This document shows positions 22,001 through 36,270 of a stretch of 64,000 nt of DNA, in pieces. Within the stretch, counting starts at the first letter, position 1. Each line of letters begins with the position of its first letter. The stretch spans positions 62,001 through 126,000 of the forward strand of contig UCHD01000019.1 of assembly GCA_900472175.1 (NCBI GenBank), in the 5' to 3' direction. The stretch comes from Hyphomicrobiales bacterium (GTDB taxonomy: Bacteria; Pseudomonadota; Alphaproteobacteria; Rhizobiales; Rhizobiaceae). The notes beneath the pieces are model-generated. The model worked only from the letters and a program-made list of their open reading frames with translations. It made no database searches and had not been told where the DNA came from. The position numbers and the translations under genes are program-made.

Positions 22001-23260
22001 TTATTTGCTCGAAAGGAACTTCTGTTGAGCCTTGGTCATGTAGTCAGCCCATTGCTTGGCCATTTCTTCCGGCGTGATATCGCCGAGCATGGCTTCCTGG
22101 CTGGTCTTGATCGCCATCGAATCCTTGAAGAAGGCGAACTCTTCCAGATAGGTCGGCATGACGGTCGGGATGGCGTCCTTGTCGGCCAGCTCCTCGAACC
22201 AGCCCTTGAACTGGTCCGTGGCAAAGAAGGGGTCCTTCTCGGCGGATTTGAGGGCCGGCAGGGCGCCAATCTTCTTGTTCCACTCGATATTGCCTTCCGG
22301 GCCTTCCAGCGTGGCGATCAGCTTCCACGACAGGTCCTTGTTGGCGCTTGCCGACATCATCGACCAGCCGGCAAAGCCGATGGTCGGGAAGGTCTTGCCA
22401 GACGGCCCCTTCGGCATGGTGGTGACACCGTAATCGGCGGCGTCCATGCGCTCTGCGATGGCGATCAGCGCATCCGGATCCTGGTCGAGCATCGCGCAGG
22501 TGCCGGTGTAGAAGCCGGCGACGATCTCGTTGAAGCCCCAGTTGACGCTGTCCTTCGGCGCATAGCCGTTCTTGTAGAGGTCGATCAGCCAGGTGAAGCC
22601 CTTCACCCAGCCTTCTTCCGAGAATTTCGATGTGCCGTCGGCGTTGAAGTAGGTGTTGTCGCCCGCCATCGTGGCGCCCATCATCATCCAGCCGTTCAGG
22701 CCGCCCGGACCGCCGCGCATGCAATAGGCATATTTGCCCGGCAGTTTCTTGATCTTCTCGGCGGCGGCGACAAAGTCGTCCATCGTCTTCGGCGGGCCAT
22801 CGACGCCAGCTTCGGCGAAGATTTTCTTGTTGTAGAACATGGCGCGCAGATAGAAGCCGTAGGGCAGCATATACGCCGTGTCCTTGACGTCGCGGCCAAG
22901 TTCGAGCGCGCGATCGGTCAGTTCCGGCGTCTGGTCCCAGGTCTTCAGGTAAGGCTCGAGGCTTTCAAGCATGCCATTGTTGGCATAGAGCGACAGCCAG
23001 GTATCGGGCATTTCCATCACGTCCGGAATTTCGCCGGCAGACACCATCGTAGCGAACTTCTGGAAGGCTTCGCCCCAGGGCAGCGAGATGATCTCGACCG
23101 TCGTGCCGGGGTTGGCGGCTTCGAATTTTGCGACGATCGATTTCAGCGTTTCGGTGCGTTCCGGGCTGGTGATGACTTCCACCAGCTTCAGCTTGGTGTC
23201 GGCAAGAGCCGTGCCTGCCATCAGCGTGGCGACCATGGTCGCGGCAATCAGTTTCCTCAT
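22001..23260 (-). CDS. ABC transporter extracellular sugar-binding protein
   Basis: A 419-residue periplasmic protein. The Sec signal MRKLIAATMVATLMAGTALA ends at an ALA site around residue 20. The mature part is a family 1 solute-binding protein, as in UgpB/MalE-like systems, with the usual long alpha/beta lobes. AAGGGAAA before the ATG at 23260 decides the start over the open frame to 23377. It lies between the PLP enzyme gene and the permeases. Confidence 0.92.
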   Translation of the reverse strand: MRKLIAATMVATLMAGTALADTKLKLVEVITSPERTETLKSIVAKFEAANPGTTVEIISLPWGEAFQKFATMVSAGEIPDVMEMPDTWLSLYANNGMLESLEPYLKTWDQTPELTDRALELGRDVKDTAYMLPYGFYLRAMFYNKKIFAEAGVDGPPKTMDDFVAAAEKIKKLPGKYAYCMRGGPGGLNGWMMMGATMAGDNTYFNADGTSKFSEEGWVKGFTWLIDLYKNGYAPKDSVNWGFNEIVAGFYTGTCAMLDQDPDALIAIAERMDAADYGVTTMPKGPSGKTFPTIGFAGWSMMSASANKDLSWKLIATLEGPEGNIEWNKKIGALPALKSAEKDPFFATDQFKGWFEELADKDAIPTVMPTYLEEFAFFKDSMAIKTSQEAMLGDITPEEMAKQWADYMTKAQQKFLSSK

Positions 23261-23303
23261 TTTCGTTTCCCTTTTATTGTTGGTTGGGTTGTTTGCTGTC
23301 GTG

Positions 23304-24476
23304 TCAGCCTGTCGATGCGGCAGCGATTGCCGCTTCGATATCGCTCCAGAGGGCCTCCGTTCCCTCCAGGCCGACATGGAGCCGTACCGACCGCGGACTG
23401 ATGCCGAAGGCGACCGCGGAATTGGGTTGTGCTTTTTGTGAAAGGACGACTTCGCCCGGCACGATCAGGCTTTCGTGCCCGCCCCAGCTGACGCCGAGCT
23501 TGAACAGCTCGAGGTGGTCCGAGAAGGTACGGACATTGATGCCTTCCTTGAAGATGAAGGAGAACAGGCCGGACGTACCTTTCAGGCCCGGCGGCAGATG
23601 ATTGGCAAGGCCGGGATAGTTCACAGACTCGACCGCATCATGCGCCTGTAGACGCTTGGTGATCTCGACTGTGGATTGCTCATGTGCCTTCATGCGGATC
23701 GGCAGAGTGCGCATGCCGCGGATCAACAGCCAGGCATCAAACGGCGACAGCTTGCCGCCGAGATAGGGATAGGCTTCCGCGCGGATGCGGCCGATCAGAT
23801 CTTTGGAACCGGCGACCACGCCTGCGACGACGTCGCTATGGCCGCCGAGATATTTCGAAGCTGAATGAATGACCAGATCGACGCCGAGCGAGATCGGCTG
23901 CTGGAACACCGGGCTTGCCCAGCTGTTGTCGATTGCAGAGATGATGCCGTGGGCCTTGGCCAGCGCTGCGAGTGCTGCAACATCATGGGTCTGCATCACC
24001 CAGCTCGTCGGGCTTTCAAGATAAAGAAACTTCGCGCCGGGCAGGGCCTTGGCGACCTCTTCTTCGTCGCGGCCGTCGACATAGGTAACCTCGATGCCCA
24101 TGCGCTTGAAGAACGTGCCGAACAGGCGGTAGGCATCGGGATAGAGATGCTTGACCGCAACGATGCGGTCGCCCGGTTGGACGAAAGACAGAACCGTCGA
24201 GGAAATCGCCGACATGCCGCTGGCAAAGCCCATGGCGTCTTCCGCACCTTCAAGTTTCGCCAGCATCTCCTCGAAGATCCGCACGGTCGGGTTCAGACCG
24301 CGCGTATAGATCGGCCGGACCTTTTCGCCGCGATAGGAGGCGACCATGTCGTCATAATCGGTGAAGGTGAACAGCGACGTCTGCACGATTGGCGGCACGA
24401 CGGCGTCATAGGCATTGCTCACGTCATGGGTGACGATGAGGGAGGCGTCTTCGAACGGATCAAACCCGTTGCTCAT
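23304..24476 (-). CDS. Cys/Met-metabolism PLP-dependent enzyme (cystathionine gamma-synthase/beta-lyase-like)
   Basis: A 390-residue fold-type I PLP enzyme acting on sulfur amino acids or related compounds. The PLP lysine is Lys208 in HSASKYLGGHSD; Tyr57 in YTRGLNPT and the SGMSAISS segment (about residues 86-93) are the family's phosphate-binding and ring-stacking parts. Length fits MetB/MetC. It starts with ATGA overlapping the regulator's stop and lies directly before a sugar importer, an unusual pairing. The reaction (beta- or gamma-elimination) cannot be fixed from sequence. Confidence 0.88.
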   Translation of the reverse strand: MSNGFDPFEDASLIVTHDVSNAYDAVVPPIVQTSLFTFTDYDDMVASYRGEKVRPIYTRGLNPTVRIFEEMLAKLEGAEDAMGFASGMSAISSTVLSFVQPGDRIVAVKHLYPDAYRLFGTFFKRMGIEVTYVDGRDEEEVAKALPGAKFLYLESPTSWVMQTHDVAALAALAKAHGIISAIDNSWASPVFQQPISLGVDLVIHSASKYLGGHSDVVAGVVAGSKDLIGRIRAEAYPYLGGKLSPFDAWLLIRGMRTLPIRMKAHEQSTVEITKRLQAHDAVESVNYPGLANHLPPGLKGTSGLFSFIFKEGINVRTFSDHLELFKLGVSWGGHESLIVPGEVVLSQKAQPNSAVAFGISPRSVRLHVGLEGTEALWSDIEAAIAAASTG

Positions 24477-25192
24477 TTGGACATTTCCTTGATGTCTTCC
24501 TCGACGATCGCGAGGATTTTCAGTGTCTCGGCACGTGCAGCTTCAGGATCCTGGGCTGCGATCGCATTGAAGAGGGTACGGTGGAACGGAAAGGAGCGGC
24601 GGGCGAAATCCAGCCGGTCGAAAGGCCATTCCCAGAAGCGCTCGAACGCGCCGCGCATCTGTTCGAGCAGCTGCTTGAACAGCGGATTGTGGGTGGCATC
24701 GTAGATGGCGAGGTGGAAGGCCAGATCTTCCGGGCCGGATGTACCCTTGGACAGGTGCACCCGCTCCATCTCATCGAGCTTTTCTTCGATCATCCGCACG
24801 TCTTCCGGCGTCCGGACGCGGGCTGCAACCATGCCGGCTTCCGCCTCGATACCCCGGCGCACTTCCAGCGTCATCAACAGCACATCACGCAGATGCGTCG
24901 TTTCCAAGGATAGCGGCATGTGGATGGTCGAGCCGGAGATCGGCTTCAAAAGGTAGGTTCCGCTGCCCTTGCGGGCCTCGACGACGCCGAGTGCCTGAAA
25001 ATGGCGGATGACCTCTCGGATGGTCGAACGGCCAACAGCCAGCGCTGTCATCAACTCCCGCTCGGCCGGAAGGCGGTCGCCGGGAACGAGGCTGGAGCGT
25101 TGGATGTAATCTGCAAGCGCTGCTGTCACCTGCTGCGCCCGGTCGGCCGGGGGCAGGGGGGCGAGCTCCGCTCTTGCATCCTTGTGCTTCAT
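24473..25192 (-). CDS. GntR-family regulator, FadR subfamily
   Basis: A 239-residue regulator with an N-terminal winged helix (about 20-85, including PAERELMTALAVGRSTIREVI) and a C-terminal all-helical FCD domain (about 100-225), where acidic and histidine residues such as those in LAFHLAIYDATHN may hold a metal. First gene of the operon with the PLP enzyme and sugar importer, so it probably senses their substrate. The ATG at 25192 has a GGAAAGCGGA-type ribosome site; an upstream frame reaches 25246. A FadR-like site lies at 25212-25230. Confidence 0.9.
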   Translation of the reverse strand: MKHKDARAELAPLPPADRAQQVTAALADYIQRSSLVPGDRLPAERELMTALAVGRSTIREVIRHFQALGVVEARKGSGTYLLKPISGSTIHMPLSLETTHLRDVLLMTLEVRRGIEAEAGMVAARVRTPEDVRMIEEKLDEMERVHLSKGTSGPEDLAFHLAIYDATHNPLFKQLLEQMRGAFERFWEWPFDRLDFARRSFPFHRTLFNAIAAQDPEAARAETLKILAIVEEDIKEMSK

Positions 25193-25211
25193 CGTCCGCT
25201 TTCCAGTTGAA

Positions 25212-25230
25212 ACCAGAATTGGTCTGACAT
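25212..25230. promoter_or_regulatory. Candidate GntR/FadR operator
   Basis: ACCA-GAAT-TGGT (25212-25223) overlaps TGGTCTGACAT (25220-25230), which fits the T-GT-N-AC-A style consensus of FadR-subfamily regulators. It lies 20-38 bases before the regulator's own ATG, where binding would repress the operon. Inference from position and consensus. Confidence 0.4.
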
Positions 25231-25415
25231 CTGAGCAATAATGCAAATCACAGCGCTGCCGTCAAGCGCGTTTATTAGTGACCGGATAAATGCGCTTGTG
25301 CGGAAATGGGGACGTAATCGGACAGACGGCTGACCGGGCAGGGCGACAATCAAACCGTGATATTGCGGTGCTCTTGTCGCCCGCGACGCTGATGGGCAAT
25401 CACGTTGCCATTCGT

Positions 25416-26414
25416 TCAGGGAATGCCTTGAGACGCTGGTGCCGAGAAATCGGAAAGGCCTGCCGGGTAAGTCCGGCCACTCAGAGGAACCGCTTCGATT
25501 GCCGCGATCAACCGATCGACCAGCAGATTTTCGGCGCGGCTGCCACGCGCGAACCGCCGGGTGACCAGATAGACGTCTGCCGCAGGCGGGTTGTCATAAG
25601 GCGGCAATTGCCAGAGCCGCCGCGCCTCGATATCGGCAGTGACCACGTGGATCGGCAGCGGGCCGAAGCCAAATCCGACCTTGATCAGCCGCTTGACCTC
25701 TTCAAGATTGGTGAAGAGACCCAGCACCTGGCCGCTGAAGTTCTCGCGCTGCCGCAGCCGCGCGACCGGTGCGAGCGCGCCGCTGAGATGATCGGTCTTG
25801 AACGATACGTAATCCAGTGCCGCAAGATCGGCGGTCTCTGTATCGCGTTTGCCGAACAGCGGATGGCCGGGCGCACAGAAAAAGCCGAAATGTTCGCGAT
25901 AAAGCACCGTATAGTCTAGTTCCGGGTGCTTTTCGTGGGCCAAACAGATGCCAAGGCAGGCCTCTCCGGACAGAACATTGTCGATCACAGTCTGGCTCGC
26001 AGATACCGTGGTCGAAAAACTGACGCGTGGAAAGGTCTTGTGAAAATCGGCTAGAAAGCGATCAAGGAACGGGCATTCGATATGGCTGGCAAAGGCCATT
26101 TCGACATGGCCGGTGACCAGGTCAGGATCATCCTTGACGAGATCGGGCAGGCCGCTGACGATATTGAACATGGTCTGGCATTCGGCATAAAGCCGCGTTC
26201 CGGCCGGTGTGGTGCGAAAATGGTTCGACGAGCGGTCGATCAGGCGGCAGGCCATATGCTCTTCGAGGCGGCGCAGCGCGTTGCTGATGGTGGGCTGCTT
26301 CAAGGACAAGCGGTTGCCCGCTGCCGTCAGGCTCTTTTCCTCGACGATCACCGTGAAGGTGCGCAGCAGGTTCCAGTCGATCTCCCAGACAAAGCGGCGT
26401 CTCGGGCTTGGCAT
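25416..26414 (-). CDS. LysR-family regulator of the DMFase/BKACE operon
   Basis: A 332-residue LysR protein with the helix-turn-helix at about residues 7-66 (WNLLRTFTVIVEEKSLTAAG) and a complete effector-binding domain. The ATG at 26414 has GAGG six bases upstream and is preferred to 26426. It is divergent from the operon beginning at 26522 and the 107-base gap holds two overlapping dyads, so it very probably controls that operon. The C-terminal tail is about 20 residues longer than usual. Effector unknown. Confidence 0.9.
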   Translation of the reverse strand: MPSPRRRFVWEIDWNLLRTFTVIVEEKSLTAAGNRLSLKQPTISNALRRLEEHMACRLIDRSSNHFRTTPAGTRLYAECQTMFNIVSGLPDLVKDDPDLVTGHVEMAFASHIECPFLDRFLADFHKTFPRVSFSTTVSASQTVIDNVLSGEACLGICLAHEKHPELDYTVLYREHFGFFCAPGHPLFGKRDTETADLAALDYVSFKTDHLSGALAPVARLRQRENFSGQVLGLFTNLEEVKRLIKVGFGFGPLPIHVVTADIEARRLWQLPPYDNPPAADVYLVTRRFARGSRAENLLVDRLIAAIEAVPLSGRTYPAGLSDFSAPASQGIP

Positions 26415-26423
26415 GGGTCGCCT

Positions 26424-26456
26424 CATTCATTTGGTGAATGCCGGTCCTTCACCTAA
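26424..26456. promoter_or_regulatory. Overlapping LysR-type dyads between divergent genes
   Basis: Two inverted repeats overlap: CATTCA/TGAATG with a 5-base spacer (26424-26440) and TTTGGTGAA/TTCACCTAA with a 9-base spacer (26430-26456, 8 of 9 bases pairing). Both have the T-N11-A character of LysR sites and lie in the shared promoter gap. Function is inferred from position. Confidence 0.5.
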
Positions 26457-26521
26457 TGTATTTGTCGGGCCAAGTCCATTGTGGTTTGATCGTCGTCACC
26501 GGAGACCCAGCGAGGCGTGAC

Positions 26522-28159
26522 GTGACCGATACGACCCAAATTTTCCCCGATTTCGGATTGACCGCCGAGCAACGGCATCAGGCGGTGCGCGGTCACTATT
26601 ACGAATATCCGGGCATGGACGGCGAGCGTGGCGAGATCTGGTGCTATACGCGCGCTTACGCTTATGCGCCCGGTGAGATGGTGGATCTGCACATCAGCTC
26701 GACAGCGCCCTCCTGCCGGCTGGAGATCGTCCGCGACGGGGCGGTCGAGACAAGCGTTTATGGCACCGATGATATCGCCACGGCCTGGCAGGAAACGCCT
26801 GATCAGGTCTCCGTGCTCGGCTGCGGCTGGGAACCGACCTTTGCTTTCCAGGTTCACGACAGCTGGCCATCTGGCGCCTACCGCATCACGCTGACGGCCG
26901 AGGGACGCGACGGCAAGCCGATCCAGTGTCACCACATGATCATTGTCCTGCCAAAACCCGGTCCAAAGCCAGGCCGGATCCTGCAGGTTGCCGCCACCGG
27001 CACCTGGACAGCCTATAATACCTGGGGTGGATCGAACCATTATCAGGGCATCACTGGCCCGAACCGCGACAAGTATGCCACCACTGTCAGTATCGAGCGG
27101 CCGCTTTGCCGTGGCTTCGTGGTACTGCCGCCGGATGCGCCCCGTGTGCCGCTGGAAGTAAGCCTGCCGCCGGGCACCATTCCGCGTTATCCGCATATGG
27201 AATGGGCTTTTGCCAACGGCTATTCGAAAAAATACACCTCGTCCGGGTGGGCGAGCTACGACAGCCAGTTCTTCCGCTGGGCCGAAAGACAGGGTTACGG
27301 TGTCGATCTCGCTAGCCAGCACGAATTGCACAACAGTCCCGAGATTCTGAAGGACTACGACTGTGTCGTCTTCGTCGGCCATGACGAATATTGGACCTGG
27401 GAAATGCGTGATGCCGTCGATGCCTATGTTGATCAAGGTGGGCATGTCGCACGCTTTGCCGGCAATTTCATGTGGCAGACGCGGTTGGAAGACGAGGGCC
27501 AGCGGCAGGTTTGCTACAAATATGTGGCGCGCAAGGAGGACCCGATCTACCAGGGCGGCGACGTTACTCGCGCCACCAATTCTTGGGAAGCGCCCGAAAT
27601 CGGCCGCCCCGGCGCGCTGACCTTCGGGCTCAACGCGACGAATGGCGTCTATTCCGGCTGGGGTGGCTGTGCGCCGCGCGGTGTTCGCGGCTTTCCGGTC
27701 TACCGGCCGCGTCACTGGGCTTTTGCCGGAACCGGCCTGTTCTATGGTGACCTCTTGGGAGCCGATAGCCATATCTACGGCTATGAGGTCGATGGTCTCG
27801 CTTACGAAATCCGCTACGGTCTGCCTTATCCAACCACCGACAGCGGTGCGCCGGAAGGGCTGGAAATCCTCGCGCTCGGCATGGCAAGCCAGGTCGAGGA
27901 AAGCGACATCCTGACACGCGAAGACCTGTTCTTCGGTGACGAGGACGGCCGTTTTATCGCCGAAACCCTCTACGGCGAAGCCTCCGACGAGAACATGGAA
28001 AAAGTTCGCTATAGCAACGGCATGATCGTCAATTTCAAGCGCGGCAAGGGCGAGGTTTTTCACGCCGGCACCTGCGAATGGGTGGCGGGCCTGCTGCGTA
28101 AGGACGCCATGGTCGAACGCGTCACCGCCAACGTCCTTAACCGCTATCTCAACCGATAA
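26522..28159 (+). CDS. N,N-dimethylformamidase beta-subunit-like protein
   Basis: A protein of about 545 residues resembling the C-terminal catalytic region of the large subunit of N,N-dimethylformamidase (roughly 760 residues), an iron amidohydrolase. The known enzyme's iron is held by two tyrosines and a carboxylate; here GTWTAYNTWGG and, 122 residues later, GHDEYWTW carry plausible Tyr, His and Glu counterparts. No small-subunit gene is present. I use GTG at 26522 (GAGG upstream); the frame is open to 26438. No signal peptide is seen. It is first of a five-gene operon with aminotransferase, BKACE, GNAT and deacetylase-like genes. The substrate, presumably an N-acyl or N-alkyl amide, is unknown. 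Confidence 0.75.
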   Translation: MTDTTQIFPDFGLTAEQRHQAVRGHYYEYPGMDGERGEIWCYTRAYAYAPGEMVDLHISSTAPSCRLEIVRDGAVETSVYGTDDIATAWQETPDQVSVLGCGWEPTFAFQVHDSWPSGAYRITLTAEGRDGKPIQCHHMIIVLPKPGPKPGRILQVAATGTWTAYNTWGGSNHYQGITGPNRDKYATTVSIERPLCRGFVVLPPDAPRVPLEVSLPPGTIPRYPHMEWAFANGYSKKYTSSGWASYDSQFFRWAERQGYGVDLASQHELHNSPEILKDYDCVVFVGHDEYWTWEMRDAVDAYVDQGGHVARFAGNFMWQTRLEDEGQRQVCYKYVARKEDPIYQGGDVTRATNSWEAPEIGRPGALTFGLNATNGVYSGWGGCAPRGVRGFPVYRPRHWAFAGTGLFYGDLLGADSHIYGYEVDGLAYEIRYGLPYPTTDSGAPEGLEILALGMASQVEESDILTREDLFFGDEDGRFIAETLYGEASDENMEKVRYSNGMIVNFKRGKGEVFHAGTCEWVAGLLRKDAMVERVTANVLNRYLNR

Positions 28160-28180
28160 ATTCAGCCAGAGCAAAGCATC

Positions 28181-29545
28181 ATGAACATCCAAGCCAATGA
28201 GCGGCCCGCATCCCATCTCTTTTACGTAACCCGCCTGCGCCGGCCGCTGGTCGATCGAGCCGAGGGTATTTATTTCTGGACTGAGGACGGGCGCCGTTTC
28301 ATCGACGGATCGAGCGGACCTATGGTCAGCAATATCGGCCATGGCAACCGCCATGTCATCGACGCGATGAAACAGCAGATGGAGAAGGTGAGCTTCGCCT
28401 ATCGGCTGCATTTCGAAAACCAACCGGCCGAAGAGCTGGCCCGGCGTCTTGCCGGAAAAATGCCCGGGGATCTGGACCGGATCTTCTTCGTTTCCGGCGG
28501 TTCGGAAGCGGTGGAATCGGCGATCAAGCTGGCGCGGCAATGGGCTGTGGCCACCAATCAGCCGAAGCGCTGGAAAGTGATATGCCGCTTTCCGTCCTAC
28601 CATGGCGGCACGATGGGCGCTCTCGGCGTCACCGGCGATCTGGCGCTCACGGAAACCTTTGCACCGCAGATCCAGCCAATGCCGGCCATCCCCGCGCCAA
28701 CCGCATACCGTGACCGCGACAACCTGACGATGGAACAGCGTGGCCTGCGTTATGCCGACATGCTGGAAGAAAAAATCCTGTCCGAAGGACCGGAAAGCGT
28801 CGTTGCCTTCATCATGGAACCGATCGGCGGCGCGGCAACGGCGGCGTTGGTTGCGCCTGACAGCTATTTTGCCCGCATCCGCGAAATCTGCGACAAATAC
28901 GGCATCCTTTTGATCCATGACGAAGTGATGAGCGGTGCTGCGCGCACCGGCAAATATCTCGGTGGCGATCACTGGAACTGCAAGCCGGATATCATCACGC
29001 TATCAAAGGGTATCGGCTCCGGCTATGCAGCACTCGGCGCCATGGCAGCGTCCGCAAAACTGGTCAAGCCGGTGCTCGATATGGGCGGCTTCCAGCATGG
29101 CTATACTTATGCCGGCAATCCGCTCGCCTGTGCGGCGGGTCTTGCAGTCCTAGAAGAGATGGAACGGCTCGGCGTTGAGGCTAATGCGGCCGCGATGGGC
29201 GACCTGCTGAAATCCGAGCTGGAAGGACTTGCCAAGCGCTTTCCCTTCATTGCCGGAGTGCGTGGCAAGGGCCTGTTGGTCGGTGCTGACCTGGTGGCCG
29301 ATCCCATCACTTTCAAGTCCTTTCCGAAGACGCAGGCGACCAACCAGCGGTTACTCGATATTGCCTATGACAAGGGCCTGATCCTTTATTCCCGCCGGAT
29401 CCGCGGCGATGGTTATGAGGCTGACAATCTGATCCTGGCGCCGCCGCTGATCATTACGGCTCAGGAAATCGGCGAAATGGTCTCGATCCTGGGCGACAGT
29501 TTCGAGCAGCTGGCACGTGAACTCGATCTGCCGGTTAATGGCTGA
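28181..29545 (+). CDS. Class III (omega) PLP aminotransferase
   Basis: A 454-residue fold-type I aminotransferase. The PLP lysine is Lys276 in TLSKGIGSGYAALG, Asp247 lies in LLIHDEVMSGAARTG, and SGGSEAVESAIKLARQ (105-120) binds the cofactor phosphate. This class transfers amino groups from omega-amino acids, beta-amino acids or amines to pyruvate or 2-oxoglutarate. It is second in the operon, 21 bases after the DMFase-like gene. Next to a beta-keto acid cleavage enzyme it would sensibly convert a beta-amino acid to a beta-keto acid; that is inference. Confidence 0.9.
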   Translation: MNIQANERPASHLFYVTRLRRPLVDRAEGIYFWTEDGRRFIDGSSGPMVSNIGHGNRHVIDAMKQQMEKVSFAYRLHFENQPAEELARRLAGKMPGDLDRIFFVSGGSEAVESAIKLARQWAVATNQPKRWKVICRFPSYHGGTMGALGVTGDLALTETFAPQIQPMPAIPAPTAYRDRDNLTMEQRGLRYADMLEEKILSEGPESVVAFIMEPIGGAATAALVAPDSYFARIREICDKYGILLIHDEVMSGAARTGKYLGGDHWNCKPDIITLSKGIGSGYAALGAMAASAKLVKPVLDMGGFQHGYTYAGNPLACAAGLAVLEEMERLGVEANAAAMGDLLKSELEGLAKRFPFIAGVRGKGLLVGADLVADPITFKSFPKTQATNQRLLDIAYDKGLILYSRRIRGDGYEADNLILAPPLIITAQEIGEMVSILGDSFEQLARELDLPVNG

Positions 29546-29555
29546 GAACGGGATC

Positions 29556-30485
29556 ATGAAGAACAAAGTTATCATCACCTGCGCCGTTACTGGCTCCGTC
29601 CATACGCCGTCGATGAGCCCCTATCTGCCGATAACGCCGGACCAGATTGCAGAGCAGGCGATCGCGGCGGCGGAGGCCGGTGCATCGATCCTGCATCTGC
29701 ATGCCCGCAACCCGGCTGATGGACGGCCGACCGCCGATCCGGCGGTGTTCATGCAATTCTTGCCGCGCATCAAGCAGGCAACGGATGCCGTCATCAATAT
29801 TTCGACCGGCGGCAGTTCGCTGATGTCGCTGGACGAGCGGCTGGCGGCATCGCTGCAGGCGCAGCCGGAAATGTGCTCACTCAATATGGGCTCGATGAAT
29901 TTCGGCATCTTTCCGCTGGCCAAGCCGGGCATGGAATGGCAGCACGACTGGGAGCCGCAGCTTCTGGAAGCGACGCGCGGCACGATTTTCAAGAATACGT
30001 TCGCGGATATCGAGGATATCTTGAAACGGCTGGGCGAGGGGTGTGGCACCCGGTTTGAATTTGAATGCTATGATGTCGGCCACCTCTATTCGCTGAAGCA
30101 TTTCTACGATCGCGGCCTGGTGAAGGGCCCGCTGTTCATCCAGTTCGTGCTTGGTATCCTCGGCGGTATCGGTGCTGATCCCGACAATCTCAGCCATATG
30201 AAGCGTATTGCCGACAAGTTGTTTGGCAGCGATTATCGCTTCTCGGTGCTGGCTGCCGGCCGCCAACAGATGCCATTGATTACTATGAGCGCTGCAATGG
30301 GCGGGAATGTCCGCGTCGGTCTCGAAGACAGCCTCTATCTTGGACGGGGGGAGCTCGCCAAGTCCAATGCAGACCAGGTGAGCCGCATTCGCTCCATCCT
30401 TGAAGCCCTGTCGCTGGAGGTGGCGACGCCGGAGGAGGCCCGCACCATGCTGGCGCTCAAGGGCGGCGATCGGGTGGCCTTCTGA
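29556..30485 (+). CDS. Beta-keto acid cleavage enzyme (BKACE, formerly DUF849/Kce family)
   Basis: A 309-residue TIM-barrel zinc enzyme. The family condenses a beta-keto acid with acetyl-CoA to yield acetoacetate and a new CoA ester. The zinc histidines are His47 and His49 in ILHLHARNP, and Glu257 in VGLEDSLYLG matches the conserved glutamate of Kce. All catalytic parts appear intact. The ATG at 29556, with a GAACGGG-type site, gives the family N-terminus MKNKVIITCAVTGSVHTP; upstream in-frame starts overlap the aminotransferase. Substrate specificity differs widely among BKACEs, and the side chain accepted here is unknown. Confidence 0.9.
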   Translation: MKNKVIITCAVTGSVHTPSMSPYLPITPDQIAEQAIAAAEAGASILHLHARNPADGRPTADPAVFMQFLPRIKQATDAVINISTGGSSLMSLDERLAASLQAQPEMCSLNMGSMNFGIFPLAKPGMEWQHDWEPQLLEATRGTIFKNTFADIEDILKRLGEGCGTRFEFECYDVGHLYSLKHFYDRGLVKGPLFIQFVLGILGGIGADPDNLSHMKRIADKLFGSDYRFSVLAAGRQQMPLITMSAAMGGNVRVGLEDSLYLGRGELAKSNADQVSRIRSILEALSLEVATPEEARTMLALKGGDRVAF

Positions 30486-30997
30486 TGGTTGATATTTCGA
30501 ACCAGCCCCTGGCAATTCGTGTCGCAACGGCTGAAGATGTGGATCTCATCCATGCCGGTCTGATGATCATCGCCAAGCATCTCGGGGAAGAAGGAAAGAT
30601 GCGGTCAACGCCGGACGATATTCGCCGGCACGGGTTTGGCAAGGAGCCTGCTTTCACTGTCCTGATCGCAGAAGCTGGTGCAGAATTCGCCGGCATGTCC
30701 TTGTTCTTTCAAAGCTTCTCCACATGGCGGGGCGAGAAGGGGGCTTATATCCAGGATATCGCTGTCGAAGAGCGGTTCCGGGGGGCGGGTATCGGCGTGG
30801 CTCTGCTGCGGCATACAGCGGCATATGTTCGCGCCAGTGGCGGCACCTATCTGCGCCTGTCGGTCGATGCGAAAAACGTTTCGGCACAGCATTTTTACAA
30901 ACGGATGGGGCTTGCCTGGTCCGAGCAAGAACAGATTCACGCGGCCTATGGCGAGACGTTCGAAGCGCTTGCTGGGCAGCATGAAAGCGGGGTTTGA
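30485..30997 (+). CDS. GNAT-family N-acetyltransferase
   Basis: A 170-residue acyltransferase. The acetyl-CoA pyrophosphate-binding motif is in VEERFRGAGIGVALLRHTAAYV (second half), followed by the DAKNVSAQHFYKRMGL segment typical of small-amine acetyltransferases such as diamine N-acetyltransferases. ATG shares one base with the BKACE stop (TGATG). Together with the amidohydrolase 9 bases downstream it forms an acylation/deacylation pair, so it may protect or store the same amine; this is inference. Confidence 0.87.
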   Translation: MVDISNQPLAIRVATAEDVDLIHAGLMIIAKHLGEEGKMRSTPDDIRRHGFGKEPAFTVLIAEAGAEFAGMSLFFQSFSTWRGEKGAYIQDIAVEERFRGAGIGVALLRHTAAYVRASGGTYLRLSVDAKNVSAQHFYKRMGLAWSEQEQIHAAYGETFEALAGQHESGV

Positions 30998-31006
30998 GGA
31001 ATAAGC

Positions 31007-32026
31007 ATGAAGACCTTTTATGCGGAAGAGCAGGCAAAGCACGATCCGAAAATGTTCCTCTCCAGCGGCGCGCCGCAGCCCAACCCGGAAAAGCCGGAGC
31101 GGATCGCACGTTTGCTGGAGGGGGCAAAAGCCGCCGGCTGCGAAATCGTTCGGCCGCGTGACCATGGCCTGAAACCGATTGCTGCTATCCACACGCCCGA
31201 ATATCTCGAATTCCTGCAGAATATCTTTCTCCGTTGGCAGCGGATCGAGGGTGCTTCGGAGGAGGTGATCCCGAATATTCATCCGCTGGCGCGGACCGGA
31301 CGCTATCCGGCCTCGGCTGTCGGCCAGGCCGGCTACCATATGGCGGACACGGCTTGCCCGATCTCCGCCGACACCTGGGGCAGCGCCTGCTGGAGTGCCT
31401 GGAGCGCCGTCGAAGCGGCGGAAGCGGTTCTGGCCGGCGCACGCCATACCTATGCACTCTGCCGCCCGCCGGGCCATCACGCCTTTGCCGACGTCGCCGG
31501 CGGGTTCTGCTTCCTCAACAATTCGGCCATTGCCGCGCAGCATCTGCTCCAGTCGTCGAAACGCGTCGCCATCCTTGATGTCGATCTTCACCACGGCAAC
31601 GGCACGCAAGGCATCTTTTACGGCCGCAGCGACGTGCTGACGGTATCGCTGCATGCCGATCCGGTCCGCTTCTATCCCTTTTTCTGGGGCAATGCTGATG
31701 AGCGCGGTGAAGGCCTGGGGCTCGGCTACAACTACAATCTGCCGCTGCCGCGCAAGACCGCCGACGCCGGATTTCTCGAAGCTCTGGACGCAGCCAACCG
31801 CCGCATCGAAGCCTATGCGCCGGATGCACTGGTCGTCGCGCTCGGCCTCGACGCCTTCGAAGGCGATCCCTTTGGTGGACTATCCGTCTCGACGCCGGGC
31901 TTTGCCCGCATCGCCGAATCCATCAGCAGCCTCGGCCTGCCAACCGTCATCGTCCAGGAAGGCGGTTATCTCTGCGACGAACTTAGCGCCAATCTGACGT
32001 CGTTTCTGACCGGGTTTGCGCGCTGA
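31007..32026 (+). CDS. Histone deacetylase-family amidohydrolase (acetylpolyamine amidohydrolase-like)
   Basis: A 339-residue zinc amidohydrolase close in length to Mycoplana acetylpolyamine amidohydrolase (341). Zinc ligands Asp193, His195 and Asp282, the His157-His158 pair in CRPPGHHAF, and Tyr321 in EGGYL are all in register. However, the acidic residues that grip polyamines there (Glu17, Glu106) align with Met16 and Val105. It should therefore hydrolyse an amide, but probably not a normal acetylpolyamine. A GAGGAA site precedes the ATG; it is the last gene of the operon. The comparison relies on my memory of the reference sequence. Confidence 0.87.
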   Translation: MKTFYAEEQAKHDPKMFLSSGAPQPNPEKPERIARLLEGAKAAGCEIVRPRDHGLKPIAAIHTPEYLEFLQNIFLRWQRIEGASEEVIPNIHPLARTGRYPASAVGQAGYHMADTACPISADTWGSACWSAWSAVEAAEAVLAGARHTYALCRPPGHHAFADVAGGFCFLNNSAIAAQHLLQSSKRVAILDVDLHHGNGTQGIFYGRSDVLTVSLHADPVRFYPFFWGNADERGEGLGLGYNYNLPLPRKTADAGFLEALDAANRRIEAYAPDALVVALGLDAFEGDPFGGLSVSTPGFARIAESISSLGLPTVIVQEGGYLCDELSANLTSFLTGFAR

Positions 32027-32178: not shown

Positions 32179-32607
32179 CTAGGTCTTGCGTTTGCGGCAG
32201 TAGAGTTCCAGCCGGTGGCGGACCAGGTCGTAGCCGAGTTCTGCGGCGATCTCGGCTTGCAGCCGCTCGATCTTGTCGGAGTGAAACTCGATGACCGCGC
32301 CGGTGTCGATATCGATCAGATGATCGTGATGCGGCGCATCTGCCGTCTCGAAGCGAGCGGTGGCGCTTTCAAAGGCATGACGATGTACGACGCCCTGTTG
32401 TTGCAGAGCCGAAAGCGTTCTGTAGACCGTCGAGAGCGAGACTGTCGCATCTATCTCCTTTGCCCGGCGATGTAATTCGTTCGCATCCGGGTGGTCCTCG
32501 GCGGTGGCGAGAATCTTCAGGATCGCCGCGCGCTGACGTGTCACGCGGACACCACCGTCCCTCAGGACACCTTCTAATTCTGCAGCGCGATTCTGGTTCT
32601 GTTTCAT
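32179..32607 (-). CDS. mur: Fur-family metalloregulator, manganese type (Mur)
   Basis: A 142-residue Fur-family repressor: winged helix at about 12-80 (VTRQRAAILKIL, SLSTVYRTLSAL) and a dimerisation domain with the histidine cluster HHDH at 93-96. The CxxC zinc sites of Zur and classical Fur are missing; only one cysteine (Cys137) is present, as in rhizobial Mur. It is divergent from sitABCD, the known Mur target in rhizobia, with a Fur-type dyad between them. It would repress manganese import when Mn is sufficient. Confidence 0.85.
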   Translation of the reverse strand: MKQNQNRAAELEGVLRDGGVRVTRQRAAILKILATAEDHPDANELHRRAKEIDATVSLSTVYRTLSALQQQGVVHRHAFESATARFETADAPHHDHLIDIDTGAVIEFHSDKIERLQAEIAAELGYDLVRHRLELYCRKRKT

Positions 32608-32650
32608 CGCCGCACATTAGCCAAGCAGGATAAGTTTGAAAATAGCCAGT

Positions 32651-32671
32651 TGCGAATGCTTCTCATTTGCA
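32651..32671 (+). promoter_or_regulatory. Fur/Mur-type operator of sitABCD
   Basis: TGCGAATG and CATTTGCA flank CTTCT: an imperfect 21-base dyad (7 of 8 pairs) resembling alphaproteobacterial Fur boxes. It ends exactly where a -35-like TTGACT (32672-32677) begins, 57 bases before the sitA ATG. Bound Mur would block polymerase. The dyad is seen; function follows from its place between mur and sitA. Confidence 0.65.
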
Positions 32672-32727
32672 TTGACTTGTGCAGATCATTCGCCTAGGTC
32701 TGTCAGTGACAATCAAGGGAGTATGGA

Positions 32728-33633
32728 ATGATCGATCAGACGAGACGCGCGATCCTGGCCGCGGCAACAGCTTTGGCAGCGTTGGCTTTGGTTCCGGGCG
32801 CCGCATCGGCGCAGGAAAAATTCAAGGCCGTGACCACTTTCACCGTCATTGCCGACATGGCCAGGAACGTTGCCGGAGACGCGGCAACCGTCGAATCGAT
32901 CACCAAGCCCGGCGCCGAAATCCACAACTATCAGCCGACCCCGCGCGACATTCTGAAGGCCCATGATGCCAAGCTGATCCTCTGGAACGGGCTTAATCTC
33001 GAACTCTGGTTTGAAAAGTTTTTCCAGAATTTTGCAGACGTCCCGGGTGTTGTCGTGTCTGCGGGCGTGGAGCCGATGGGGATTGCCGAAGGTCCCTATA
33101 GCGGTAAGCCGAACCCGCATGCCTGGATGTCACCGTCGTCGGCGCTGATCTATGTCGACAACATTCGCGATGCGTTCGTCAAATACGATCCGGTGAATGC
33201 CGAGACCTACAAAGCCAATGCAGCCGCCTACAAGCAGAAGATCGAGGCTGCGATTGCGCCCATTCGTGCCGAGATCGGCAACATTCCCGAAGACAAGCGC
33301 TGGCTGGTGTCGAGTGAAGGCGCCTTCAGCTACCTGACGCGTGATTTCGGCCTGAAGGAACTTTATCTCTGGCCGATCAATGCCGACCAGCAGGGTACGC
33401 CACAGCAGGTTCGCAAGGTGATCGACGCCGTTCGTGCCAACAACATTCCGGTCGTCTTCTCTGAGAGTACGATTTCTCCCGATCCGGCGCAGCAGGTGGC
33501 GCGCGAGACAGGCGCTAAATACGGCGGCGTTCTCTATGTCGATTCTCTGAGTGAGGCGGACGGCCCGGTTCCGACCTATATCGACCTCTTGCGCGTCACA
33601 TCCGAAACCATTGCCAAAGGTCTTTCGCAATGA
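32728..33633 (+). CDS. sitA: Manganese/iron ABC importer, periplasmic binding protein (SitA)
   Basis: A 301-residue cluster A-I metal-binding protein with a Sec signal ending near residue 28 (GAASA-QEK). The four metal ligands expected from PsaA/MntC are His66 (EIHNY), His131 (NPHAWM), Glu197 (SSEGAF) and Asp272 (YVDSLS), with spacing like that of PsaA. An AAGGGAG site precedes the ATG. First gene of sitABCD, with each gene overlapping the next by ATGA. Confidence 0.93.
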
Positions 33634-34565
33634 GCCTTCAGATGCAAGTCCGGCCCGGCCAGGGACCGTTAGCCGGGCAGCCCGGCAGCGGCATTCGCGT
33701 ATCCGGCGCAACCGTAACTTACCGCAACGGTCATCGTGCCCTGCTTGACGCCTCCTTCGAAATACCGTCCGGCACCATCACGGCGCTTGTCGGCGTCAAT
33801 GGTAGCGGCAAGTCGACCTTGTTCAAGGCGATCATGGGCTTTGCCCGGTTGGCCCGTGGCGACATTTCGGTGCTTGGACTTTCCGTGCCGGAAGCGCTGA
33901 AGAAGAACCTCGTCGCCTATGTGCCGCAGGCCGAGGAAGTTGACTGGAATTTCCCGGTTCTTGTCGAAGACGTGGTGATGATGGGCCGTTACGGCCACAT
34001 GAACATGTTGCGCATCGCCAGGAAGGCCGATCACGATGCGGTCGAAGCCGCCCTTGCCCGCGTTGGCATGAGCGATTTCCGCAAACGCCAGATCGGCGAG
34101 CTTTCCGGCGGGCAAAAGAAGCGGGTTTTTCTGGCACGGGCGCTGGCGCAGGACGGCCGGGTCATCCTGCTCGACGAACCCTTCACCGGCGTCGACGTCA
34201 AGACCGAAGACGCGATCATCCGTCTGCTGATCGGCCTGCGTGACGAGGGCCGGGTCATGCTGGTCTCCACCCACAATCTCGGCAGCGTGCCGGAATTCTG
34301 CGACCGCACGGTTCTTCTCAAGAACACCGTTCTTGCCTATGGCCCAACCGAAACCACCTTCACCCGCGAAAATCTCGAACGCGCCTTCGGCGGTGTGCTG
34401 CGCCATTTCGTGCTCGCCGGCGCCAGCCTGCATGACGATGCCGATCCGCGGCAAGTGTCCGTCATCACCGACGACGAGCGGCCGCTGGTGATGTACGGCG
34501 CGAGCGGCCATATGGTGCCGCAACCGGCCAAGCCCGAGACCGATCCGGAGGCGAACGGCCAATGA
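33630..34565 (+). CDS. sitB: Manganese/iron ABC importer, ATP-binding protein (SitB)
   Basis: A 311-residue ATPase with Walker [10 protein letters not shown] at residues 55-63, signature [15 protein letters not shown] and Walker [13 protein letters not shown]. The N-terminal 20 residues and C-terminal 50 residues extend beyond the core, as in rhizobial SitB. Overlaps sitA by four bases and sitC by four, so the four genes are translationally coupled. Powers Mn(II) (possibly Fe(II)) uptake. Confidence 0.93.
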
Positions 34566-35422
34566 TTGCCACGCTGATGGAGCCGTTTACCTATAACTAC
34601 ATGCTGACCGCCATGTGGGTGAGTGCGCTGGTCGGTGCCGTCTGCGCCTTCCTTTCGTCTTATCTGATGCTGAAGGGGTGGTCTCTGATCGGCGATGCGC
34701 TTTCGCATGCGATCGTTCCGGGGGTCGCCGGCGCCTATATGCTCGGCCTGCCCTTTTCGCTTGGCGCCTTCTTTTCCGGCGGACTTGCGGCCGGCGCGAT
34801 GCTGTTCCTCAACCAGCGAACCCGGCTGAAGGAGGACACCATCATCGGGCTGATCTTCACCGCCTTCTTCGGCCTCGGCCTGTTCATGGTGTCACTGTCG
34901 CCGACCTCAGTGAACATCCAGACGATCGTGCTCGGCAATATTCTCGCCATCACGCCCGCTGACACACTGCAGCTTGCCCTTATCGGCCTAATCTCGCTGA
35001 TCATCCTGACGGTGAAGTGGAAGGACCTGATGGTGACCTTCTTCGACGAGAGCCATGCGCGGTCTATCGGTATTCCGACAACCTTTCTGAAATTGCTGTT
35101 CTTCACCCTGCTTTCTGCCTGTACGGTCGCGGCATTGCAGACAGTCGGTGCCTTCCTTGTCATCGCCATGGTGGTGACGCCAGGCGCGACGGCCTATCTG
35201 CTCACCGACCGGTTCCCACGGCTGATTGTCATCAGTGTTGCGATCGGCGCGCTGACAAGCTTCGTTGGCGCCTATTTCAGCTATTTCCTCGACGGCGCCA
35301 CTGGCGGCATCATCATCGTGCTGCAAACGCTGATCTTTCTACTGGCCTTTGTCTTTGCCCCGAAACACGGGATCCTTGCTGCCCGCCGGCGCACGGCCGA
35401 AGCGCTGGAGGCTGTCCGATGA
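34562..35422 (+). CDS. sitC: Manganese/iron ABC importer, permease (SitC)
   Basis: A 286-residue inner-membrane protein of the ABC-3 family with eight or nine hydrophobic helices; [22 protein letters not shown] is the family hallmark near the N-terminus. It forms the channel with SitD, to which it is similar along its length, pointing to an old duplication. Coupled by ATGA overlap on both sides. Confidence 0.93.
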
Positions 35423-36270
35423 TGTCGCTCGACATGGCGCTCGCCGTCTTTGAATTCCCGTTCATGCGCAATGCGCTGCTGATCTCGGTGCTGGTGGCAG
35501 TTCCGACGGCGATGCTGTCCTGTTTCCTCGTGCTGAAGGGCTGGTCGCTGATGGGTGACGCCATTTCGCACGCGGTGTTTCCAGGCGTGGTGATCTCCTA
35601 CATCGCCGGCCTGCCCTTTGCCGTTGGCGCCTTTGCTGCCGGCATGTCCTGCGCCCTTCTGACGGGGTATCTCAAGGAAAACAGCCGCATCAAACAGGAT
35701 ACGGTGATGGGCGTGGTGTTTTCCGGCATGTTCGGCTTTGGCCTGGTGCTCTACACCAAGATCGAGAGCGACGTGCATCTCGATCATATCCTGTTTGGCG
35801 ACATGCTCGGTATCGGCTGGCCCGATATTCTTCAAACCGGCCTGATTGCGCTGGTGACGACCGGTATTCTTGCGGTCAAATGGCGGGACTTCCTGTTGCA
35901 CGCGTTCGACCCCGCCCAGGCAAAGGCTGTCGGTCTGCGCGTCAACTGGCTGCATTATGGGCTGCTCGCCCTTCTGTCGCTGACGATCGTCGGCGCCCTG
36001 AAAGCCGTCGGCCTCATCCTTGCCATCGCCATGCTGATTGCGCCCGGTGCCATTGCCTTCCTGATCACCCGCACGATGGGAAGGATGCTGACCGTTGCTG
36101 TAATCGTAGCGACAGTTGCCTCTTTCTGTGGCGTCTACCTGTCGTTTTTCATCGATAGCGCCCCGGCACCGACCATCGTGCTTCTGATGAGTGTGATTTT
36201 CATTTTTGCCTTCGTCTGGTCGTCATGGAGGACGGCTCGCATCGAGACGCAGCGGACACCAGTCGGATAA
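35419..36270 (+). CDS. sitD: Manganese/iron ABC importer, permease (SitD)
   Basis: A 283-residue ABC-3 permease, paralogue of SitC (KGWSLMGDAISHAVFPGVVISY matches the SitC hallmark). The true start is the ATG at 35419 overlapping the sitC stop; the frame is open back to 35017 but that part only shadows sitC. It is the last gene of the operon. The following gene is convergent, 41 bases away. Confidence 0.93.
   Translation: MMSLDMALAVFEFPFMRNALLISVLVAVPTAMLSCFLVLKGWSLMGDAISHAVFPGVVISYIAGLPFAVGAFAAGMSCALLTGYLKENSRIKQDTVMGVVFSGMFGFGLVLYTKIESDVHLDHILFGDMLGIGWPDILQTGLIALVTTGILAVKWRDFLLHAFDPAQAKAVGLRVNWLHYGLLALLSLTIVGALKAVGLILAIAMLIAPGAIAFLITRTMGRMLTVAVIVATVASFCGVYLSFFIDSAPAPTIVLLMSVIFIFAFVWSSWRTARIETQRTPVG

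Follow-up and report, generated by a model that had tools for sequence, protein, structure and literature searches.

A conserved rhizobial gene set that is probably a breakdown operon for beta-lysine

The aerobic catabolism of L-beta-lysine was reportedly worked out in Pseudomonas sp. B4 by the Barker laboratory in about 1979-81, and EC 2.6.1.65 and EC 3.5.1.51 are said to stem from it. The route is said to proceed through N6-acetylation, beta-transamination, cleavage to acetoacetate and 4-acetamidobutyryl-CoA, deacetylation, and thioester hydrolysis, with EC 3.5.1.51 reportedly being a single protein that has both deacetylase and thioesterase activity. We know of no genes for this route, and a search of the open-licence literature found no gene-level description of such an operon or pathway. 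For the cleavage step, a point of reference is BKACE15 of Paracoccus denitrificans (PDB 8RIP, 9HNF), which takes several C3-C6 beta-keto acids, C5-C6 included, and for which a part in aromatic degradation has been suggested from its genomic context (PMC11961710).

The window analyzed here is a stretch of 64,000 nucleotides from a Hyphomicrobiales bacterium (contig UCHD01000019.1), in which a first-pass annotation made from the sequence alone had picked out five tightly packed, co-directional genes and a divergent LysR regulator. That arrangement is real: all six reading frames are open and have family matches far above cut-off (Table 1), with the five-gene run spanning 26522-32026 on the forward strand. 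The junctions run from an 8 nt overlap of the aminotransferase and BKACE genes (or a 10 nt gap, depending on whether ATG 29538 or ATG 29556 is used) through a 1 nt overlap of BKACE and GNAT (TGATG) and a 9 nt gap between GNAT and HDAC to a 21 nt gap between the DMFase-like and aminotransferase genes. The start of the DMFase-like gene had to be moved; it is most likely GTG 26522 rather than 26438. In an alignment of 10 sequences the frame upstream is interrupted by single-base indels whereas GTGAC is preserved, and the annotated gene of P. qamdonense begins at approximately the equivalent position. The true start of the LysR gene is probably a few codons downstream of the annotated one.

Table 1. 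Features of the operon and its regulator, in window coordinates
Feature	Position	Strand	Supporting match
Divergent LysR-family regulator	25416..26426	-	PF03466 (LysR_substrate) 1.3e-29; PF00126 4.9e-17
Candidate LysR operator, dyad CATTCA-N5-TGAATG	26424..26440	.	Arms kept in aligned close relatives
DMFase-like (DMFA2_C) protein, accessory gene	26522..28159	+	PF20254 5.9e-68
Class III aminotransferase	28181..29545	+	PF00202 (Aminotran_3) 2e-91
BKACE	29538..30485 (start 29538 or 29556)	+	PF05853 8.9e-111
GNAT	30485..30997	+	Acetyltransf_1 3.5e-15; best profile match thialysine acetyltransferase 12jc
HDAC-superfamily amidohydrolase, acetylpolyamine amidohydrolase type	31007..32026	+	PF00850 (Hist_deacetyl) 4.6e-75

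Dyads had also been reported between the regulator and the operon. One, CATTCA-N5-TGAATG, has both its arms in every one of the 10 sequences aligned, which all come from close relatives; it is a candidate LysR operator of the T-N11-A type. A LysR gene lies near 47 of the 115 distinct aminotransferase loci described below. Sigma-70-like sites were no more frequent than in shuffled sequence (2 found against a mean of 2.2), and terminator-like sites were not clearly so (7 against a mean of 5.1, sd 2.3).

Our reading is that the gene set is probably a conserved rhizobial breakdown operon for beta-lysine. The imported substrate would be a beta,omega-diamino acid, for which beta-lysine (3,6-diaminohexanoate) is the likeliest candidate, and its omega-amine would be acetylated by the GNAT, the proposed beta-lysine N6-acetyltransferase. 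The class III aminotransferase, a proposed N6-acetyl-beta-lysine transaminase, would then turn the beta-amine into a ketone to give 6-acetamido-3-oxohexanoate, in which the acetyl cap would block cyclization of the free amine onto the ketone. Cleavage of this compound with acetyl-CoA is the proposed reaction of the BKACE and would yield acetoacetate and 4-acetamidobutyryl-CoA, from which the HDAC-like enzyme, as a proposed 4-acetamidobutyryl(-CoA) deacetylase, would take off the acetyl cap; with the CoA removed by a 4HBT thioesterase, 4-aminobutyrate would be left. Uptake would be by an ABC transporter, encoded beside the operon in some relatives and at a distance in the window's genome, and the DMFase-like enzyme would be an accessory amidase, most likely one that acts on an amide conjugate to liberate the diamino acid. 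Part of this outline was already in the first-pass annotation, and a single catabolic operon in which transamination yields a beta-keto acid that the BKACE splits into acetoacetate and a new CoA ester is supported; the accompanying statement that no described pathway with this set was known overlooks the beta-lysine route, which has reportedly been described biochemically. The data show the family memberships, the catalytic residues, the conserved linkage and the association with a transporter and a thioesterase, and from these we infer the substrates, the order of the steps and the role of the DMFase-like enzyme: the acetylate-transaminate-cleave-deacetylate logic we consider likely, and for beta-lysine itself as the substrate we see about an even chance.

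Failure of the genes to be co-conserved had been named as an outcome that would count against the operon. What was found in 394 genomes of the family is that an HDAC gene lies at most 8 kb downstream of 48 of the 60 close matches to the DMFase-like protein and of 0 of the 20 distant ones, a co-conservation that far exceeds chance in a test that ignores the kinship of these related genomes. The count took 80 DMFase-like matches and 75 of 103 HDAC matches (at least 69% identity); by eye, none of the 28 left out shares a contig with a DMFase-like match. Two partial genes are among the 60 close matches. Genome G757 contributes three entries, and two of these are apparently pieces of one gene. Neighborhoods with the aminotransferase numbered 118, or 115 distinct loci after removal of duplicates (L012/L169, L013/L170, L027/L177). 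GNAT is present in 98 of these, HDAC in 103, both together in 94 and BKACE in 77, and the 77 loci with aminotransferase and BKACE include 71 with HDAC and 63 with GNAT; since most loci were retrieved via the DMFase-like or HDAC gene, the shares of those two are inflated, and HDAC counts in HDAC-retrieved loci are true by construction. HDAC occurs without GNAT at nine aminotransferase loci. BKACE is not in place at 30 of the 80 loci of set A, some of which reach contig edges, and a 59-69% homologue is found elsewhere in 13 of 13 tested genomes of the BKACE-less set A loci.

By family matches, candidates for the acetyltransferase, the beta-transaminase, the beta-keto cleavage enzyme and the deacetylase are encoded together in the window operon. 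The DMFase-like gene is absent from 21 of the 115 distinct loci, 20 of which have BKACE and 14 GNAT. It is found at none of the 12 Pot-type loci with the aminotransferase, GNAT being missing from six of them, and Shinella plasmids carry a complete operon that is free of it, in the order SBP3-permease-permease-ATPase-aminotransferase-BKACE-GNAT-HDAC, followed by LysR and a thioesterase gene. Judged from gene content, the conserved core is aminotransferase-BKACE-GNAT-HDAC, and the DMFase-like gene is an add-on because complete operons without it exist in relatives.

The aminotransferase is nearest to the NCBIfam models PRK06917 and PRK07483, scoring under the cut-off of both. The BKACE is a clear family member (PF05853, 370 bits against a cut-off of 24.8; NF053538, 537.4 against 430) and matches the BKACE15 structure 8rip over its full length (4.4e-121), with catalytic residues corresponding to E171, Y173 and R254 in an alignment counted by hand. 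Its score with the Kce equivalog model, 247.8 bits (NF052387), is below the cut-off of 382, and Kce lysine fermentation is rejected for this operon on that basis. In relatives the core comes with an ABC transporter of amino-acid or Pot-like type and sometimes with an acyl-CoA thioesterase; the window's genome encodes such a transporter about 65 kb from the operon on the same contig, along with a thioesterase and a paralogue of the LysR gene, and the binding protein maps to C13:159,380-160,192. The remark in the first-pass annotation that no transporter is included is correct for the operon itself, but a cognate transporter is present elsewhere on the same contig. Operon-linked transporters are either of a type for polar or basic amino acids or Pot-like, the latter a label to which the binding protein matches weakly (PotD, 34.5 bits against a cut-off of 582), the permease below cut-off (PotB, 200.4 against 348) and the ATPase just above it (TIGR01187, 357 against 355.6). 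Where the lysine-binding protein has its acidic D11, the transport proteins carry Ser, Thr or Asn-Ser, so the ligand may not be one with a free omega-amine.

These data leave some room for the same acetyl-protection logic with a different beta,omega-diamino acid as its substrate, for example a homologue of beta-lysine that differs in chain length or a compound of plant or antibiotic origin. We regard this as unlikely, though not negligibly so, since beta-lysine is the sole such compound known to us to have a matching biochemical route. Speaking for it are a chain length that the sequence does not fix, service of the operon by both Pot-like and amino-acid-type transporters, and the several C3-C6 beta-keto acids that BKACE15 accepts (PMC11961710).

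The acetyl protection required by the beta-lysine reading would fall to the last two genes of the operon. By sequence, profile and modeled fold, the GNAT groups with omega-N-acetyltransferases that act on thialysine, diamines and ornithine: its profile matches include 12jc (thialysine acetyltransferase, 9.4e-27), SSAT2 (7.9e-24) and NATA1 (8.1e-15), and in Foldseek its model (pLDDT 88.2) retrieves 2fe7 first and then the thialysine acetyltransferase SSAT2 (2bei), with TM of about 0.7-0.8. At what we take to be the SSAT substrate site, an acidic Glu-Asp pair and a general-acid Tyr, Asp91 and Tyr138 are invariant in 14 of 14 sequences and the Glu position is Gln90 in all 14. The HDAC-like enzyme has 3men as its best solved relative (2.2e-99 over residues 1-338) and contains the motifs GHH, DVDLHH, GLDAFEGDP and EGGY, presumably the His-His dyad, the Asp-His-Asp zinc ligands and the catalytic Tyr. 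Earlier, the GNAT had been given no role and its partner called no more than deacetylase-like; with both present at 94 of 115 loci, the pair is better read as putting on and taking off a protecting acetyl group. The homology could also be taken to mean scavenging of acetylated polyamines, the HDAC-like enzyme deacetylating acetylputrescine or acetylcadaverine, the GNAT acetylating polyamines, the aminotransferase producing aldehydes and the BKACE acting elsewhere, and here the best solved relatives of the HDAC-like enzyme (acetylpolyamine amidohydrolases), the SSAT-like GNAT and the Pot-like transporters of one lineage all agree. It is nevertheless improbable, as no aldehyde dehydrogenase is annotated within the block of P. 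qamdonense or of two Shinella plasmids, and the BKACE, which needs a beta-keto acid, adjoins the aminotransferase in 77 of 115 loci, including 20 of the 21 that lack the DMFase-like gene; a polyamine-only reading is rejected on these grounds.

The DMFase-like protein matches the profiles of DMFase and N-acetyl-(R)-beta-phenylalanine acylase at 2-4e-19. Two of its residues, Tyr165 and Glu289, are invariant in 14 of 14 sequences and align with Tyr399 and Glu521, which together with Tyr440 we take to be the DMFase iron ligands; the region of Tyr440 does not align. Its AF2 model (pLDDT 47) is too poor for use, and no gene for a DMFase small subunit was found among its neighbors. It is probably an amidohydrolase by homology, and the match to the acylase would fit a scheme in which it opens the route by releasing a beta-amino acid from its N-acyl form for the aminotransferase and BKACE, GNAT and HDAC being side activities. 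Four loci from two other families (L117-L120; one genus accounts for three) indeed retain the order transporter-DMFase-like-aminotransferase-BKACE with no GNAT or HDAC adjoining, and an HDAC occurs elsewhere at 70% in one of these genomes and at only 45-46% in three. This scheme is still distinctly improbable: the gene is missing in Shinella and in all 12 Pot-type loci that have the aminotransferase, GNAT and HDAC are together at 94 of 115 loci, and N-acyl beta-amino acids are anionic, unlike the typical cargo of these transporters. The same complete Shinella operons and Pot-type loci speak against the original proposal that amide hydrolysis by this protein is the defining first step. A further scheme, in which it would make the beta-keto acid directly by hydrolyzing an N-(3-oxoacyl) amide (an acyl-homoserine lactone, for instance) and the other enzymes would salvage the amine, is scarcely credible, given that operons without it retain aminotransferase and BKACE together and that the transporter type suits amino acids.

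The acetyl-protection logic of the beta-lysine reading also seems to be preserved, with non-orthologous replacement of three enzymes, in a Sinorhizobium medicae pSU277 cluster, where a 3-oxoacid CoA-transferase and thiolase stand in for the BKACE, an ArgE/DapE deacylase for the HDAC-like enzyme and a HemL-like aminotransferase for the class III enzyme, while the GNAT (41%), the DMFase-like protein and the transporter are kept. A possible link to lysine 2,3-aminomutase came from TIGR00238, which has 11 matches in 10 of 20 operon genomes, none adjoining an operon copy (nearest about 50 kb, in G549). In the window's own genome the match has EF-P and a class II tRNA-synthetase-like gene as neighbors, so that it is probably EpmB and uninformative about the operon. 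Biotin-type genes adjoin L008 and L009, most of them read from translated starts, and were judged to be chance neighbors.

It is our tentative suggestion, and one that may well fail, that the genes still lacking for aerobic beta-lysine catabolism, among them those for N6-acetyl-beta-lysine transaminase (EC 2.6.1.65) and 4-acetamidobutyryl-CoA deacetylase (EC 3.5.1.51), are those of these operons, with a new physiological substrate for BKACE and a DMFase-like clade of amidases that release beta-lysine from conjugates. If this is right, a biochemical pathway measured decades ago would gain genes, including candidates for enzyme activities that are not known to have a sequence, and many uncharacterized operons in rhizobia and other Alphaproteobacteria would gain a function. 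An HDAC-family enzyme would act on the metabolite assigned to EC 3.5.1.51, HDAC-family and SSAT-family enzymes would form a protecting-group pair in catabolism, and rhizobial plasmids would be tied to the scavenging of natural products that contain beta-lysine.

Among known systems, lysine fermentation (Kce) likewise uses a BKACE-family enzyme to cleave a beta-keto acid that stems from beta-lysine, and its Kat, a HemL-like beta-aminoacyl-CoA transaminase, is comparable to the S. medicae aminotransferase; however, it involves no acetylation or deacetylation, and its aminomutases and dehydrogenase are absent from the window operon. The acetylpolyamine amidohydrolases (3men, 9gkz, 3q9b) are homologous to the HDAC-like enzyme over its full length and share its catalytic and zinc motifs, but the operon partners point to an acetamido acid or CoA ester rather than a polyamine. 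BKACE15 resembles the window BKACE in full-length similarity and in catalytic Glu171, Tyr173 and Arg254 and differs in context, aromatic degradation being suggested for BKACE15 (PMC11961710). With the DMFase large subunit and N-acetyl-(R)-beta-phenylalanine acylase, the DMFase-like protein has in common the C-terminal domain and the aligned Tyr and Glu, the similarity being distant and its length 545 aa against about 775. The order of the chemistry is that of the beta-lysine catabolism reported for Pseudomonas sp. B4, which the proposed route would match step by step, the operon differing in its extra DMFase-like gene and in that deacetylase and thioesterase would be encoded by two genes.

The window's operon comprises five co-directional genes whose products belong, in order and by Pfam family, to the DMFase-like proteins (DMFA2_C), class III aminotransferases, BKACEs, GNATs and the HDAC superfamily, with junctions of 21 nt, -8 nt (or +10 nt counting from the second ATG), -1 nt and +9 nt; this is the set that the first-pass annotation had described, and its tight packing, divergent LysR gene and family assignments are all confirmed. 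The start of the DMFase-like gene is most likely a GTG, since single-base indels among 10 aligned sequences disrupt the frame upstream of it. Several Pararhizobium-type relatives also have the GntR/PLP-enzyme cluster next to their operons, and in P. qamdonense the Fur-family and metal-type ABC genes likewise follow the operon.

Features of the operon region and of loci compared with it (window coordinates unless a contig or locus is named)
Feature	Position	Strand	Remark
GntR-family regulator, Cys/Met-metabolism PLP enzyme, ABC solute-binding protein	22001-25246		Divergent, adjoining cluster
LysR gene	25416-26426	-	Divergent from operon
Dyad CATTCA-N5-TGAATG	26424-26440		Both arms kept in 10/10 aligned sequences
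Five operon genes	26522-32026	+	Most likely start GTG 26522
BKACE gene	29538-30485	+
Fur-family regulator; metal-type ABC transporter genes	32179-36270	-; +	After the operon
4HBT thioesterase, LysR paralogue, binding protein, two permeases, ATPase	C13:157,829-162,355		Same contig, outside the window, ~65 kb off
EF-P, class II tRNA-synthetase-like, KamA/EpmB-type radical SAM genes	L239:5259-8152		Same genome, contig C37
Sinorhizobium medicae pSU277 cluster	L090:12046-19020
DUF523 family gene	L021:12934-13488		Example from a named locus

The DMFase-like and HDAC genes are clearly co-conserved: among the 60 DMFase-like matches of at least 65% identity in 394 same-family genomes, 48 are followed within 8 kb by an HDAC gene in the same orientation, as against 0 of 20 more distant matches. 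Counted by genome, HDAC matches of at least 70% occur in 74, DMFase-like matches of at least 65% in 57 and both in 51 (Fisher p 4e-39, relatedness of the genomes left uncorrected). Named genomes searched for the DMFase-like protein yielded 322 relatives, from which the best 80 loci were taken. Some of these stop at contig edges; at the thresholds applied, the aminotransferase is present in 75, HDAC in 75, GNAT in 74 and BKACE in 50, and 45 loci have the whole set of five. A 2-thiouracil desulfurase (DUF523) family gene precedes the GNAT or HDAC gene in nine of the 80.

Judged from gene content, the core of the operon is not the DMFase-like gene. Across 115 distinct loci that carry such an aminotransferase, GNAT occurs in 98, HDAC in 103, the two together in 94, BKACE in 77 and the DMFase-like gene in 94, the DMFase-like and HDAC shares being inflated because most loci were retrieved through one or the other. 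Transporter genes of SBP3 type accompany 22 of these loci and Pot-like ones 12; LysR is found at 47 and a 4HBT thioesterase at 16. The 21 loci free of the DMFase-like gene are more informative: 20 of them have BKACE and 14 have GNAT. A complete operon without the DMFase-like gene occurs on two Shinella plasmids (SBP3, two permeases, ATPase, aminotransferase, BKACE, GNAT, HDAC), followed by LysR on the opposite strand and a thioesterase gene, and a second lineage has LysR, Pot-like permeases, binding protein, ATPase, aminotransferase, BKACE, GNAT (6/12) and HDAC, the DMFase-like gene being present in 0 of 12 Pot-type loci. The earlier proposal of an undescribed route from amide hydrolysis through transamination to BKACE cleavage is thus partly supported: as regards a catabolic aminotransferase-BKACE operon, but not as regards a central DMFase-like gene.

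On pSU277, a transporter and a DMFase-like gene (69%) are followed by LysR on the opposite strand and then by 3-oxoacid CoA-transferase A and B, an ArgE/DapE deacylase, a thiolase, a GNAT (41% identity to that of the window) and a HemL-like aminotransferase. CoA-transferase plus thiolase is a usual alternative to BKACE for cutting beta-keto acids, and ArgE/DapE enzymes are deacylases. Kat of lysine fermentation, also HemL-like, is a beta-aminoacyl-CoA transaminase according to PMC3149608. At this one locus, with transposases nearby and ~1.4 kb without an annotated gene between the DMFase-like gene and LysR, BKACE, HDAC and the class III aminotransferase appear to have been replaced by these enzymes while GNAT, the DMFase-like gene and the transporter are kept, so that the pathway logic appears constant as three enzymes change. 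At another locus (L016), 3-oxoacid CoA-transferase and thiolase genes adjoin the DMFase-like, BKACE and HDAC genes and would suit acetoacetate disposal; that thiolase, though, scores above the cut-off for PcaF and could be part of a different pathway.

Only the BKACE among the five proteins has a named NCBIfam match above cut-off, NF053538 ('3,5-dioxohexanoate:acetyl-CoA acetone transferase'), and gene context suggests a different physiological substrate; the BKACE of a further locus (L193) receives the same name. The window's BKACE keeps, by alignment position, Glu171, Tyr173 and Arg254 of Paracoccus denitrificans BKACE15, as described in PMC11961710 and PMC12871164. The nearest solved relatives of the GNAT (2fe7, 12jc (thialysine acetyltransferase), SSAT2/SSAT1, plant NATA1/2) are known or named for omega-amine acetylation of lysine-, ornithine- or polyamine-like compounds, and an AF2 model (mean pLDDT 88.2) gives a similar fold ranking. 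It departs from SSAT in the acidic pair, here Gln-Asp in 14/14 sequences. Acetylpolyamine amidohydrolases match the HDAC protein over its full length; since homologues of ~44-60% also occur in quite different operons (one, in Azospirillum, with a BKACE near), this type alone does not predict an acetyl-protected pathway. Solved DMFase and N-acetyl-(R)-beta-phenylalanine acylase are no more than distant relatives of the DMFase-like protein; two of the three DMFase iron ligands align and are invariant among 14 sequences. Homologues of 40-50% (L093-L096, L098), apparently an unexplored amidase clade, sit in quite different catabolic settings, with large CoA transferase, hydantoinase, urea carboxylase plus DUF3830, and agmatinase-like genes.

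The operon in the window has no transporter, as was noted from the outset. On the same contig, a binding protein, two permeases and an ATPase are 81%, 81%, 79% and 86% identical to proteins encoded directly upstream of the DMFase-like gene at a Mesorhizobium locus (L023), and they accompany a 4HBT thioesterase (~41% identity to a relative's) and a LysR paralogue (46% identity). The best solved relative of the binding protein is an ancestral Gln/Arg-type protein, with nopaline- and lysine/arginine/ornithine-binding proteins lower; NCBIfam cystine and lysine/arginine/ornithine models rank first, all below cut-off.

The best explanation of the operon, to which we give an even chance, is acetyl-protected catabolism of a beta,omega-diamino acid, most likely beta-lysine. 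GNAT would acetylate the omega-amine, the aminotransferase would form the beta-ketone, BKACE with acetyl-CoA would yield acetoacetate and an omega-acetamido acyl-CoA, and HDAC and a thioesterase would release the amino acid; on chemical grounds, the acetyl cap would block cyclisation of the omega-amine onto the ketone. Several observations argue against this reading. Four loci from two other families keep transporter, DMFase-like gene, aminotransferase and BKACE without adjoining GNAT and HDAC (HDAC elsewhere is 70% identical in one of these genomes and only 45-46% in three), and nine aminotransferase loci have HDAC without GNAT. Many Mesorhizobium-type operons have no BKACE in place; 13/13 such genomes tested encode a 59-69% homologue elsewhere, which may act on a different substrate. 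The transport proteins, moreover, lack the acidic residue that binds the lysine side chain in the lysine-binding protein. Elsewhere in the same genome, the side-by-side EF-P, tRNA-synthetase-like (probably EpmA) and radical SAM genes suggest EF-P beta-lysylation.

The open-licence literature searched contained no mention of two acetylated intermediates, the transaminase or the EC numbers of a beta-lysine acetyl pathway. The Barker laboratory reportedly described an aerobic beta-lysine pathway in Pseudomonas B4 (EC 2.6.1.65, EC 3.5.1.51), which the proposed steps, if the substrate is beta-lysine, would match one by one; the operon would then supply genes for chemistry already known, plus an extra amidase, and would not amount to a new type of system.
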